Positions 44,779 through 62,331 of a stretch of 64,000 nucleotides of DNA are shown one piece after another. The number at the start of each line of letters is the position of its first letter. The stretch's first letter is position 1. The DNA comes from Actinomycetes bacterium (GTDB lineage: Bacteria > Actinomycetota > Acidimicrobiia > Spongiisociales > UBA5794), in NCBI GenBank assembly GCA_024638645.1, contig JAHEJX010000002.1, forward strand, positions 22,573 through 86,572. Direction: 5' to 3'. Below the pieces are notes generated by a model, which worked only from the letters and a program-made list of their open reading frames with translations, did no database searches and was not told where the DNA came from. Made by a program: the position numbers and the translations under genes.

Positions 44779-45389
44779 GCCTCGACTGGGACAAGATTGT
44801 GTTTGACGACGCCGGGCTGATTCCTGCGATCGTCCAAGACGCGACCTCAGGCCAGGTGCTGATGCTCGGCTACATGAACCGGCAAAGCCTCGAACTGACG
44901 CACACAGAGGGTCTGGTGACGTTTTGGAGCCGGAGCCGCAACGAGCTGTGGCGCAAGGGGGACTCGAGCGGCAACCGCCTAGAGGTGCGCAGCGTCTCGC
45001 TCGACTGCGACGGCGACGCTCTCCTGGTGCAGGCAGTTGCAACGGGACCGACGTGCCACACCGGGACGATTTCGTGCTTCTCCGCCGAGCCGACTCAAGG
45101 GTTCCGACGGCTCGAGGGCTTGTGGAAGGTAATTGCCACCCGTGCCGCCGAACGACCCGAAGGGTCATACACCGCGGACCTGATCGCCGGAGGAGTCAAC
45201 GCCACAACCCGCAAGGTCGCAGAAGAAGCCACCGAGGTGTTGCTGGCGGCCAAGGATCACGCAGCCGGGCGAGATGCCGGTGAACTTGCCGAAGAGACAG
45301 CAGACCTGATTTACCATCTGCTCGTTGTGCTGGCTGAACGAGGCGAATCTCCATCTGCATTCCTTGACGCTCTCGAGCGGAGGGCATGA
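44775..45389 (+). CDS. hisIE: bifunctional phosphoribosyl-AMP cyclohydrolase / phosphoribosyl-ATP pyrophosphatase
   Basis: HisI ([42 protein letters not shown]...) fused to HisE ([18 protein letters not shown]...[14 protein letters not shown]). Confidence 0.95.
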
Positions 45390-45880
45390 CACGCCTATTG
45401 CCGCTCCTTGTTGTGGCTGCGCTGCTGATCGTCTCCTGCGGCGGGACATCCCCAGACATCGCAGGCATCCCAGACTTGCCGGAAGCAACTACTGCAGACC
45501 TCGTCGCATCGATCGAGGCAGGGCAGCTGCCTGCCGTCGTGAACGTGTGGGCTTCATGGTGCGGGCCCTGCCGGTCCGAAGCACCGCTGTTGTCTGCAGC
45601 AGCAGGGGAATTCGCGGATCGAGTCACGTTCATCGGGCTCAACGTCCGTGACAGCCAGAACCGTGCCAAGGGGTTCATTGTGGAGTTCCTCGACGATGCT
45701 CCGATTGAACATGTCTTCGATCGTGACGGCTCGACGGTGGCCGACCTGGGGGGCACCTCGGGAGTACCGCTCACGATCTTCATGAACGCCGACGGAACCG
45801 TGTCCAAGATCCACTTCGGCGTGATCGACGAGCGCACTCTCGCCCTCGAAGTCGACGAACTCGTGCAGGCCGGCGCCTGA
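45386..45880 (+). CDS. TlpA-like thioredoxin-fold lipoprotein with intact WCxxC
   Basis: VVNVWASWCGPCRSEAPLLSAAAGEFADRVTFIGLNV; lipobox LLIVSC. Confidence 0.92.
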   Translation: MTRLLPLLVVAALLIVSCGGTSPDIAGIPDLPEATTADLVASIEAGQLPAVVNVWASWCGPCRSEAPLLSAAAGEFADRVTFIGLNVRDSQNRAKGFIVEFLDDAPIEHVFDRDGSTVADLGGTSGVPLTIFMNADGTVSKIHFGVIDERTLALEVDELVQAGA

Positions 45881-56578: not shown

Positions 56579-58768
56579 TCAGCCCCAGTTCATCGAGAAT
56601 CGGGAAAGATTCAAGCTCTCGTCAAAAAACTGATCATCTTCGGCGCGGGCCGCTTTGATCACTACCTCTCCGGTCGGTGATGTGACCCGATTGAAATCGA
56701 GTGTGTCGCCCCACTCGAAGGCAACGTAATCGCCCACAACCCAGTCGTATACAGATGAATTGGAGAGACGAGTGAAGCCCGGCTCAACGGAGCCTCCATT
56801 TGCCGAGTTCGGCACGACGTAGTGGAGGTACACCGCCTCGGCCCCATAAGCGTAGATCTCTTCGTAGTACTGCTCGACACTCGCCGAACCTTCGACTCCG
56901 AGCAGCCGGGGCCGCGCTGAAGTCCGCGCGGCGAGAATGCTGCCGTCGTCGGGAACTTCTGCCACCAGCAGTGTGGAGCCGGTAGAGGCGGCCGAATCGC
57001 CATTGACCTCAATCGGATACTCCTCGTCCTCCGTAAACCCGAAGAAGTGGATTCCGTTCTCTTTCAGGCCCGGAGCCATTTGCTCGGCGAAGACCGCCAT
57101 CGGGAATATCTGCTGGTACTCGGTTGCGTAGAAGTTCTCGTCGAAGAACCCGCGCCGTTCAACCGCCTCCATGATCACCGGCTGAAATCGGTTACTGCGG
57201 CGGTTGGTGATTCTGGCCTCGACCGACCCCTCACCCTGCGCCACCAGGGGCTCAGAAGCCAAGAACCCAAGCCCGTCGACGACGAAGCCCCACGTCTGGA
57301 AGACGTTGCTCGTGGGATTGCTCGCGTTGATCGTGAAGCCGTTATCCGTCGCGGCAACGGTGAATACAAGCTCGGTAGTTGTGTCCTCAGCCCAAGCGCC
57401 TTGTGCTGTTCCGACGCCGAGGTCTGCGAGGTCATAAGAGATCACGGTCCGGCCTGCGCTGTCTGTGCTCGTGACTCCAGACTCGGCACCAGGGAAGGCT
57501 TGTCCTTCAGAGTTCCATCCATCGCCGAAACGCAGGTCGTGATCGCCGCCCGACTCAACCTGAAGCACAAACGCGGTCCGCCCTTCTGCGCCAAATTCAG
57601 ACTGGACGACTACCGAAGTGTGGGTCACAGTGAACGGTTGCAACTGCGACCGGCCCACGATCCAGAACCCGGCCACGAACACAGCACTGAGCAGGGGAAC
57701 CGTGAGCCACGCCCACTCCGGTTTGCCGAAGCCGCGCAGCACGATGAAGTTGACCGGACCGACTAGAACCACAAAAAGCAAAATGCCCAGCAGGAGCCAT
57801 GGGAGAGCAGGCACAGATGCAGAGCGGCCCGACAGGGCGGCGCTGATCAGCGAGCCCGATCCACCGTCCTCCTGTATGCGGACAATGCCCGGCTGCGGCA
57901 CCGAGCGAATCAGTTCGCTCCAATCGGCGGCGTCTAGGGAGTCAAAATCGTTGACGGCAGTCACCTCGCCGGCTCCGAGAGTCACTGCGACGGCATCTGC
58001 GGTTCGGAAAGCCTTGCCGCCCGCCGGATCGACGAGTCGGCTTACATTGGTACCAGACGCAACAAGGCGTCCGCCGTCGTCGACCCAACGTCGCACCGTC
58101 TCGACCGCATCCGCGGACAGGTCGGCCATCGCACCTGTCGGTAGGACGAGGTAGCTGACGGCAGAATTGAGGTTGGCTACGTCCGCGCCGGCCAGTCGGA
58201 CGACGGCAACTTCCTGCGCCAGCGGTTTGGGAGTTGCGCTGCGAATGGTCGATTCATAAGGCGCAGCGTCGACAACTGCAACGACGATTTCGTCGGCAGG
58301 GACACGCAGAGAAACCTGCGCCGTTTCGAGAATCGTCTCTTCGGTGCCGCTCTCATCCGTGAGCTGAACCCGCAGCTGGCGGCGCTGCCCTGGGGTACCG
58401 GCTTGGATGAAGTAGTCCTTCACGCCCCCGGCGGGAATCTCTACGGCCTGCGAGGTCGTGACCCCACCGATCGAGACGTCGATGCGTCCGACTAGGAGCA
58501 AATCGGAGCTCAGGTTCACCCGAAGGGGCAGAGGCTCGTTGGGGGAAACCCAGCCGTCCACGCCGGCAACGACACTCATCCGCCAAGTGGCGGGCACCTC
58601 GGCAGGCGCCTGCTCAACAGGTTCGTCCTCGGCCGGAATCTCGGTCTGAGGTGGGGCCTCCTGGATGAGAGCCACGTCGAGAGCCGCAGCAGGCACAACT
58701 GACAAGCCGAGTGCTGCCAGCAGCCCGACAACGAAGATAAGCGCAACTCTCCTCATGCCCACATCCAT
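56579..58768 (-). CDS. large predicted exported membrane protein of unknown function, first gene of the MoxR/VWA/ABC operon
   Basis: 729 aa, signal sequence, long extracytoplasmic region, internal TM cluster (VPALPWLLLGILLFVVLVGPVNFIVL). Confidence 0.8.
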   Translation of the reverse strand: MDVGMRRVALIFVVGLLAALGLSVVPAAALDVALIQEAPPQTEIPAEDEPVEQAPAEVPATWRMSVVAGVDGWVSPNEPLPLRVNLSSDLLLVGRIDVSIGGVTTSQAVEIPAGGVKDYFIQAGTPGQRRQLRVQLTDESGTEETILETAQVSLRVPADEIVVAVVDAAPYESTIRSATPKPLAQEVAVVRLAGADVANLNSAVSYLVLPTGAMADLSADAVETVRRWVDDGGRLVASGTNVSRLVDPAGGKAFRTADAVAVTLGAGEVTAVNDFDSLDAADWSELIRSVPQPGIVRIQEDGGSGSLISAALSGRSASVPALPWLLLGILLFVVLVGPVNFIVLRGFGKPEWAWLTVPLLSAVFVAGFWIVGRSQLQPFTVTHTSVVVQSEFGAEGRTAFVLQVESGGDHDLRFGDGWNSEGQAFPGAESGVTSTDSAGRTVISYDLADLGVGTAQGAWAEDTTTELVFTVAATDNGFTINASNPTSNVFQTWGFVVDGLGFLASEPLVAQGEGSVEARITNRRSNRFQPVIMEAVERRGFFDENFYATEYQQIFPMAVFAEQMAPGLKENGIHFFGFTEDEEYPIEVNGDSAASTGSTLLVAEVPDDGSILAARTSARPRLLGVEGSASVEQYYEEIYAYGAEAVYLHYVVPNSANGGSVEPGFTRLSNSSVYDWVVGDYVAFEWGDTLDFNRVTSPTGEVVIKAARAEDDQFFDESLNLSRFSMNWG

Positions 58769-58821: not shown

Positions 58822-59448
58822 CTAAGTGTTGCTACCTGCCAATTGGTCGAGTGCACTGCGGATGTCCGCTTCTGCAGACAAACCGAACCAGTTGGCGACG
58901 AGAACATCGTCGTGAGATATCAAGAAGGTGACTGGCTGGCCGAACACTTCATACGCTTCCCAGATGCTCTCGTCGAGCGTCCACACGATATTGCCGCTCG
59001 GAATGAGTTCATTGGCCCGAGCGGCGGTTGCATCGAGGCTCGCTTTACCGGCGACTGCAAGAAACGTAACGTCACCCTGGTAGTCGGCTGCAATCGATTC
59101 GACGACGGGCAACTCCCGCCGGCAAATGCTTCACCACTCAGCCCAGAAGATCAGGTATACCGGATTGGCCTCTTCTGCGAGCGAGAAAGCGGTCCCGTCG
59201 GAAAGAACCGTGTTGATGGCGGGGGCCGCCGGGCCTTCGGTAGGGGGACGTTGCGCATTGGGAGTTTCAGTTGCTGGCGTTTGCGAACCCTGCGTCGCCC
59301 CGGACTCGGTCGTCGCCGGGGGCTCGCTCGTCCCAATCGCATTACTCGGAGGCGCTCCGGTCGGTGCCGAAGATGACGTGGATTCTGCCGCGCCTCCACA
59401 AGAGGCGGCTACCACGGCGACAATTGCTACTAGAAGGCGGAAACGCAT
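58822..59448 (-). CDS. TlpA/thioredoxin-like lipoprotein with in-frame TGA at the active site; candidate selenoprotein
   Basis: Same-frame fragments 59131..59517 and 58822..59112 join through one TGA (59131-59133): ...PVYLIFWAEW[TGA]SICRRELPVVESIAADYQGDVTFLAVAG...GQPVTFLISHDD. N-terminus MRFRLLVAIVAVVAASCGG (lipobox) from ATG at 59446-59448. Confidence 0.7.
59103..59121 (-). promoter_or_regulatory. putative bacterial SECIS hairpin
   Basis: CGGCGGG-AGTTG-CCCGTCG: 7 contiguous pairs (one G-U), 5-nt loop with G in second position, loop beginning 17 nt after the TGA (16 intervening nt). Confidence 0.6.
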
Positions 59449-59523
59449 TAGGGGGAAATGTAACTCAGGTTGGTCGGTAGCAGAACTCCACTCTCGAGGA
59501 GTTCTCTGAATGTTCATGTTCGC

Positions 59524-60555
59524 CTAGCTCTCGGCGAATTCGGCGCTGAAGCTGACAACTCGCTCGAGTACGGCCGCAGCTGCTCCACTGTCAACGGCCT
59601 GTTGCGCTAGGAGAATGCCGTCTTCGAAACCATCGGCGAGCCCGGCCACGACGATGGCGGGGGCGGCGTTGATGACAACGATGTCGCGGTGCGGGCCGCT
59701 ATCGCCCGCAATGACGGACCTGGTGATCCGTTCGTTGTCCGCGGCATCGCCTCCTTGAATCTGGTCAAGCGTCGCCCGCGGCACGCCGAGGTCGGAGGGC
59801 TGGAACTGGGCTGTGGTGATTTCGCCTTCCCTAATTCGATGGACCGTCGAGACTCCGGTCGTCGAAAGCTCGTCGAGACCGCCGTGACCATGAAAGACAA
59901 AGGCGTACTTGGCGCCTCGTCGCGCCATGACGCCGGCCATCCGCTCAGCCATTGCGGCATCTGACACTCCAATCGCCGCCCGTTTCGTGTTCGCCGGATT
60001 GCACAAGGGGCCGAGGAAGTTGAAGACGGTGCGAACACCCAGCTGCCTGCGTACCGGTCCGGCAAAGCGCATAGCGGGGTGATAGGCAGGAGCAAAGAAG
60101 AAGCCGAAGCCGATTTCACGAATCATGGCGACCGTCGCATCCGGCGGTAGATCCAGCTTGAGGCCAAGCTGCTCGAGCAAGTCGGCACTTCCGGTCTTCG
60201 ATGAGGCTGCCCGGTTGCCGTGCTTGGCGATCTTGACTCCGGCGCCTGCTGCCACAAAAGCCGCGGTGGTTGAGATGTTGAACGTCCCCGCTCTGTCACC
60301 CCCCGTGCCCACCAGGTCGACGACGTCATCGCCGGCGTCAACTGTCACAGCGGCGTCATACATGCCGTCGACGAGTCCGGCCATTTCATCGACCGACTCG
60401 CCTTTGGTCCGTAAGGCGATGATGAATGCTGCGATCTGAGCTTCACTTGCCCTGCCTTCCATGATCTCATCCATGGAAGCTCGGGCGAGATCACGGCCAA
60501 GGTCCTGCCCATCGATGAGAGCAGATATGACATCGGGCCAGTTGAATCCAGACAT
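59524..60555 (-). CDS. trpD: anthranilate phosphoribosyltransferase
   Basis: DLVGTGGDRAGTFNISTTAAFVAAGAGVKIAKHGNRAASSKTGSADLLEQLG. Confidence 0.96.
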   Translation of the reverse strand: MSGFNWPDVISALIDGQDLGRDLARASMDEIMEGRASEAQIAAFIIALRTKGESVDEMAGLVDGMYDAAVTVDAGDDVVDLVGTGGDRAGTFNISTTAAFVAAGAGVKIAKHGNRAASSKTGSADLLEQLGLKLDLPPDATVAMIREIGFGFFFAPAYHPAMRFAGPVRRQLGVRTVFNFLGPLCNPANTKRAAIGVSDAAMAERMAGVMARRGAKYAFVFHGHGGLDELSTTGVSTVHRIREGEITTAQFQPSDLGVPRATLDQIQGGDAADNERITRSVIAGDSGPHRDIVVINAAPAIVVAGLADGFEDGILLAQQAVDSGAAAAVLERVVSFSAEFAES

Positions 60556-60654: not shown

Positions 60655-60954
60655 CTAGCTCGCAATAGCTCCGGCACCACGTCTGACGAGACGCCGACGT
60701 TGCTTCTCGGTCATTCCGCCCCATATCCCGAAGCGAATGTCGGCCTCGAAAGCGTATTCGAGGCAGTCGTACTGAACGGGACACGTGGCGCAGATAGCCA
60801 GTGCTTCCTTTTCTTGCGACCTGTTTTCGGGGAAGAAGATATTGGCGTCTTTGTCCCGACAGGCGGAGAAGACGACCCAGGGCCGCTCCTCAGTGATCGG
60901 CACCGGCAAGATTTCCGACCCACTAGAGCGGGTGTTGGTTCCTTGATATGTCAT
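60655..60954 (-). CDS. WhiB-family iron-sulfur transcriptional regulator
   Basis: SACRDKDANIFFPENRSQEKEALAICATCPVQYDCLEYAFEADIRFGIWGGMTEKQRRRL: four Cys and GIWGG. ATG at 60952-60954. Confidence 0.95.
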   Translation of the reverse strand: MTYQGTNTRSSGSEILPVPITEERPWVVFSACRDKDANIFFPENRSQEKEALAICATCPVQYDCLEYAFEADIRFGIWGGMTEKQRRRLVRRGAGAIAS

Positions 60955-61003
60955 GGTCCTGGCACCTCCATGAGGTGTGGCGGGTGGTCGCCCCATCACC
61001 CAT

Positions 61004-61977: not shown

Positions 61978-62319
<342 letters not shown>

Positions 62320-62331
<12 letters not shown>

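Follow-up and report, generated by a model that had tools for sequence, protein, structure and literature searches.

A Predicted Selenocysteine-Containing Thioredoxin-Like Lipoprotein Conserved in an Order of Actinomycetota

Organization of the Locus and Its Reading Frame

The window, by which is meant the whole stretch of 64,000 nucleotides that was analysed (contig JAHEJX010000002.1 of assembly GCA_024638645.1, positions 22,573 to 86,572), comes from an actinomycete of the class Acidimicrobiia and carries on its minus strand, at 58822-59448, a single reading frame that is broken by one TGA codon alone (59131-59133) and holds no other in-frame stop. The translation of this frame is MRFRLLVAIVAVVAASCGG...NPVYLIFWAEW-TGA-SICRRELPVV...FGQPVTFLI...LAGSNT-stop. 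Under translation table 11, the gene is called as two separate ORFs, at 59131-59517 and 58822-59112. When the TGA is read through, the product has 208 residues, with the TGA at residue 106 in FWAEW-U-SIC, where it would encode selenocysteine (Sec106) at the first position of a U-S-I-C active site, and with the resolving Cys109 of the UxxC motif encoded at 59122-59124 and invariant in the alignment of homologues. An earlier note on this DNA had described two minus-strand ORFs in the same frame parted by this one TGA, with no further stop down to 58822 and with the thioredoxin-fold domain retained, and had expected ORF callers to split the gene; translation, Pfam and the ORF calls bear out each of these points. 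Although the upstream ORF extends back to an ATG at 59517, both the homologues and the signal peptide point to 59448 as the more likely ATG start, and the note had given this same end of the gene.

The N-terminus comprises a signal peptide with a lipobox (59398-59448 on the minus strand; MRFRLLVAIVAVVAAS-C17, lipobox VVAAS-C17, with the Cys17 codon at 59398-59400). Cys17 is present in at least 90% of aligned family members, and the lipobox motif marks the product as a putative lipoprotein. Between the lipobox and a C-terminal thioredoxin-like domain (residues about 74-205) runs a low-complexity linker, some 55 residues long, in which Ser, Thr, Pro, and Ala are abundant.

The upstream neighbour on the same strand (59524-60555) is trpD, encoding anthranilate phosphoribosyltransferase (Pfam Glycos_transf_3), which lies near the gene in 49 of the 72 family loci. 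Directly downstream, also on the minus strand, 56579-58768 encodes a predicted exported protein of 729 residues with no Pfam match, and at a locus of the same genus (L145) a protein of equal length (729) likewise follows the selenoprotein gene. A WhiB-type transcription factor, whose gene assigns the genome to Actinomycetota, is encoded nearby (60655-60999, minus strand), and the window also contains a bacterial class A RNase P RNA at 61983-62330 on the plus strand (231.6 bits). Promoter and terminator scans returned nothing above chance.

The position of the TGA within the fold was assigned with the help of a cysteine-containing paralogue on the plus strand (45386-45880; Pfam and translation), which reads NVWASWCGPCRSEAPLL and has VWASWCGPC at its active site. 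Aligned with this WASWCGPC motif, the TGA occupies the position of the nucleophilic Cys, which confirms the placement proposed in the earlier note. The in-frame TGA with an evident sense meaning could in principle reflect a genome-wide change of code in which TGA specifies an amino acid. TGA terminates 29 of the 42 long ORFs in the window, where it is the commonest stop, and is thus the normal stop here, as the note had also held; moreover, the codon occupies the place of a Cys, and TGG encodes the Trp that immediately precedes it. A change of code was rejected on the stop usage in the window and is vanishingly improbable.

Conservation of the TGA Codon Across the Order

A search of the nearest relatives with the read-through protein found that most genomes of the order carry TGA at the same place. 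In the first 72 copies of the FWAEW family extracted from the loci of relatives, the codon at the selenocysteine position is TGA in 70, TGC in one, and TGT in one, the 70 TGA copies in FWAEW-U-x-x-C being distributed over 68 independently assembled genomes of the order. A search of the class brought the homologues with a Cys codon (TGC or TGT) to six in all, four of them from that search, and also yielded further TGA copies; 86 TGA copies enter the hairpin count given below. The homologues with TGA or a Cys codon that the earlier note had proposed as a check were thus found, and among the family members examined no other codon occurs at this position.

Homologues from the same genus, with TGA at the same place, are 54-59% identical to the read-through protein, while a sample of the family shows 37-54% identity to it; in the alignment of this sample, P96, FWAEW, U/C106, C109, E112, P114, W156, P172, and G189 do not vary. 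Within the order, FWAEW copies reach 139-270 bits, and outside the order, in a class sample and in 398 genomes across the phylum, nothing exceeds about 103 bits; six such outside matches were fetched, of which four read FWASWC and two have no recognisable motif.

The TGA could also have arisen as a Cys codon mutated in a decaying gene or as a miscalled base, since TGC and TGT are one change away from TGA and the genome is a draft. The same TGA nevertheless recurs in 70 copies from independent assemblies, far more often than chance would allow, and the half of the gene downstream of it bears the marks of function. In 61 pairs of sequences that are 70-95% identical, the mean differences per site downstream of the TGA are 0.48 at synonymous and 0.11 at nonsynonymous positions, which indicates that amino-acid replacement is suppressed and that this part is under purifying selection as protein. 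Additional stops are nearly absent from the family, and the decay of pseudogene type that was sought in the relatives was absent. Pseudogene and miscall were rejected on the conservation of the TGA and on purifying selection, and either is extremely unlikely.

The Predicted SECIS Hairpin

Shortly downstream of the TGA, at 59103-59121 on the minus strand, lies a predicted bacterial SECIS hairpin of 19 bases and 7 bp, CGGCGGG-AGUUG-CCCGUCG, which is indicated by folding, codon bias, covariation, and the bSECIS model. Its apical loop of 5 nt, AGUUG (59110-59114), has G at loop position 2 and is separated from the UGA by 16 nt, and its folding energy is -11.6 kcal/mol. The bSECIS model describes a loop of 3-9 nt with G in its first two bases, a stem of 4-16 bp, a distance of 16-37 nt from UGA to loop, and an energy of -7.5 kcal/mol or lower (PMC13188914), and the hairpin satisfies its loop, stem, spacing, and energy limits.

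Folding was compared with a null in which the protein is kept and synonymous codons are resampled, in 9-codon windows along the 70 TGA genes. The window starting three codons past the TGA has a mean z of -1.76 over the 70 genes, against -0.63 to +0.24 for the 36 other windows. The family consensus of the hairpin is (C)G(A/G)CGGG-AGUUG-CCCGUC(G), and its codon usage is strongly biased: the Leu codon is TTG in 54 of 70 genes (15% elsewhere in these genes), the Pro codon CCC in 66 of 70 (37% elsewhere), and the Arg codon CGG in 65 of 69 (34% elsewhere), the binomial values on this bias being indicative only because the genes are related. The seven pairs are formed in 90.3% of cells, with 18 cells changed on both sides, and the covariation exceeds that of all 500 shuffles and all slid controls. 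In G073 and G060 (L108, L120), a C-G pair is replaced by A-U, a change accompanied by the substitution of Leu for Val in the protein.

The five-pair core of the hairpin is present in 79 of the 86 TGA copies versus none of the six Cys copies (Fisher p = 2e-6, relatedness ignored), although the amino acids are for the most part retained in the Cys copies. Among the seven TGA copies without the core, one tandem copy in each of L169-L171 and the copy in L087 appear to form a shifted hairpin; the Sec copies L123 and L124 have no hairpin at the usual place and no shifted version.

Selenocysteine Machinery

The genome that carries the window is a draft of 4.13 Mb with an estimated completeness of 84.7%. 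It contains selA and selB adjacent in an operon on contig C184 (420 and 332 bits) and selD on contig C211 (411 bits), all above the curated cut-offs. The selD gene (G000:C211:29214-30137; L018, L051) itself has an in-frame TGA followed by a hairpin, at SHGAG-U-ACK, the known Sec/Cys site of SelD, and SelD is therefore predicted to be a selenoprotein as well.

A search of the draft assembly (84.7% complete) with the Rfam covariance model and a same-genus gene query did not find tRNA-Sec; those of the Rfam tRNA-Sec matches that were checked proved to be tRNA-Ser, tRNA-Leu, and tRNA-Gly. The gene is present in two genomes of the same genus (G001 and G002, 73 bits), and ARAGORN calls the G002 gene tRNA-SeC with anticodon TCA (UCA in RNA). 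In three drafts (G002, G018, and G022; L086, L072, and L084), no more than about 140 bases separate the tRNA-Sec copy from a contig end, which makes it plausible that the gene was lost from the window's own assembly at a break, as if it stood at a site where assemblies tend to fail. With regard to the set of genes that the earlier note had asked for in the same genome, selA, selB, and selD were found there, while tRNA-Sec was found in two genomes of the same genus.

Across the relatives, SelB scores above its cut-off in 83 of 99 genomes. Of the 69 genomes that carry the TGA form, 61 have such a SelB, and the eight others are all drafts, 56-95% complete. Five genomes have only the Cys form (G076, G212, G248, G257, and G293), and four of them lack a SelB match, compared with eight of the 69 TGA-form genomes (p = 0.002, relatedness ignored), G257 being the Cys-only genome that still has SelB.

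These data also bear on a reading in which the UGA is a true stop, either with separate translation of the downstream part, for which a TTG start past the TGA is available (ORF 58822-59112), or with low-level readthrough by a near-cognate tRNA that would insert Trp or Cys. The codon never turns into TAA or TAG, its only replacements being Cys codons; a fragment beginning after the TGA would be without the nucleophile and the opening strands of the fold; a hairpin that fits SECIS disappears where Cys appears; and SelA, SelB, and SelD are present. A true stop or near-cognate readthrough is accordingly very unlikely. Insertion of selenocysteine at the UGA to give a USIC active site, the central proposal of the earlier note, is strongly supported by the conserved TGA, the SECIS hairpin, and the presence of selA, selB, and selD.

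Fold and Probable Function

The read-through protein matches the Pfam models Thioredoxin, Redoxin, and AhpC-TSA above their gathering scores, and an AlphaFold model computed from the alignment has a mean pLDDT of 85, with values above 90 through most of the domain. The closest fold in the PDB is ResA (TM 0.87 by target length, 25% identity), followed by Mycobacterium tuberculosis DsbF (TM 0.86 by target length), CcmG, and the pneumococcal Etrx lipoproteins, with identities in the structure matches of 18-26%. The thioredoxin fold is present with its UxxC site and cis-Pro loop, in which P172 is invariant, and the Glu three residues past the resolving Cys is likewise invariant (E112); judged by the motif CxxCxxE, this Glu takes the place of ResA Glu80, known from an E80Q structure.

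On this sequence and model evidence, the product is most likely a Sec-dependent thiol-disulfide oxidoreductase of the ResA/TlpA/DsbF type, anchored to the membrane and facing outside. In the proposed mechanism, SelB with Sec-tRNA(Sec) would bind the hairpin and decode UGA106 as selenocysteine, and the product would be exported and receive a lipid anchor on Cys17, the long low-complexity linker keeping the thioredoxin-fold domain outside the membrane. Sec106 would attack a disulfide, or alternatively a peroxide or sulfenic acid, and the resulting selenenylsulfide would be resolved by Cys109. Glu112 may tune the active site together with the cis-proline loop (Gln171-Pro172), as in ResA, and thiol-disulfide exchange on exported proteins is the probable main task.

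Selenocysteine provides a low-potential, strongly nucleophilic site. Reduction of exported proteins appears more likely than oxidation, because such a nucleophile favours fast reductive attack and because some relatives have the gene beside ccmH-ccmG. A selenoprotein with another main role, acting as an exported oxidase like Mt-DsbF or Mt-DsbE or as a peroxidase, is less probable but far from negligible. By sequence, the PDB entry most similar to the protein is M. tuberculosis DsbF (E = 2e-9), and the Redoxin and AhpC-TSA models match as well. Mt-DsbE and Mt-DsbF are described as helping oxidative folding in vitro (PMC3853704). Against such a role stand the nearest fold, that of ResA, which is a reductant, the ccmH-ccmG neighbourhood, and the chemical character of selenocysteine, although none of these is decisive. 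The gene neighbours vary: the f2 genomes have ccmH-ccmG nearby, other genomes have lgt, aminotransferase genes, and a Cys paralogue of the TlpA type next to the gene, and these neighbours do not fix the function or the substrate. Taken as a whole, the locus is very probably best explained as one gene for a predicted exported selenoprotein, a thiol-disulfide oxidoreductase with SECIS-directed Sec106.

Relationship to Known Families

Selenoproteins with a UxxC site of the thioredoxin, TlpA, and redoxin types have been catalogued (PMC13188914 Table 1; PMC2398784 Table 2), in classes that include the thiol-disulfide isomerase-like cd02966 and the UGC-containing TlpA family (PMC13188914 Table 1) as well as Trx-like 1 COG0526 of the GOS survey (PMC2398784 Table 2). 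They share with the window's family the thioredoxin fold, Sec in place of the first Cys, and a bacterial SECIS past the UGA, but they are either broad groupings or UGC proteins, whereas the family described here is characterized by FWAEW-U-xxC-xRELP and is confined, in the genomes searched, to one order. PMC13188914 lists MGB1650493, MDE0950781, and HEU0032618 as TlpA-like and redoxin selenoproteins, and the present family may lie hidden within one of the broad catalogued UxxC entries.

The window's protein does not score above the cut-off of any NCBIfam model. The Rcas_1661 family (NF041057) is similarly composed of lipoproteins with a thioredoxin-like domain and Sec or Cys, but membership was rejected at 24.4 bits against a cut-off of 190, and 3 of 34 family members match the model at E 1e-5. 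NF041054, the ResA-like WAxxUGC motif protein, also has Sec after a WA motif; the motif here is WAEW-U-xxC in the family and U-S-I-C in the window's protein, and membership was rejected at 16.9 bits against a cut-off of 300. ResA, TlpA, DsbE/CcmG, and M. tuberculosis DsbF/DsbE resemble the protein in fold, in export, and in the conserved Glu and Pro that come after the active site, but these are Cys enzymes, whereas the window's protein has predicted Sec, and its scores against the curated NCBIfam models are far below the cut-offs, for example 40.6 bits with NF002854, the curated model for ResA, whose cut-off is 170.

Evolution of the Family and Related Sec Genes

In a tree of 104 domains, one branch divides the family from the Cys paralogues as well as from a second Sec type (FWAP[HWYF]-U-xxC). 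Within the family, Cys members are nested among Sec members at about four places, with many forks unresolved and some Cys rows on long branches, and this nesting favours Sec as the ancestral and Cys as the derived state. An independent-pairs test on the tree has three pairs on well-supported branches, too few to reach significance.

In genus g47 of the same order (L168, L169, L170, and L171), three tandem copies occur, each with TGA at FWAEW-U, and in three of these genomes one copy has a shifted hairpin in which CAG (Gln) replaces GAG (Glu). The chances seem evenly balanced that the order has an order-wide family of exported selenolipoproteins with ancestral Sec, retained while the order diversified, in which Cys replaced it at three or four places, mostly in lineages losing selB and with the hairpin decaying each time, and in which some lineages tripled their Sec copies in tandem.

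In one genome (G079; L119, L098), a TGA copy of the family occurs together with a divergent copy that has Cys (FWAEWCHTC). The second UxxC type, FWAP[HWYF]-U-xxC with TGA, was observed in other families of the order and class (L131-L135, L172-L178), with hairpins such as UCGGGAGGCUCCCGA, and in G131 (L172) a TGA copy adjoins a Cys copy.

Implications

Annotations for an order of Actinomycetota may be missing a conserved redox protein, because gene callers break its gene into a pair of hypothetical ORFs and no model in NCBIfam covers the protein. Regular use of selenocysteine is indicated in a group, the class Acidimicrobiia, for which the literature searched contained no selenoprotein study. 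The family further offers a natural experiment on the replacement of Sec by Cys with and without loss of selB, in which the SECIS element lends itself to scoring against the protein code at every base, and a family profile combined with the hairpin would let annotation pipelines rejoin the two halves of the gene.
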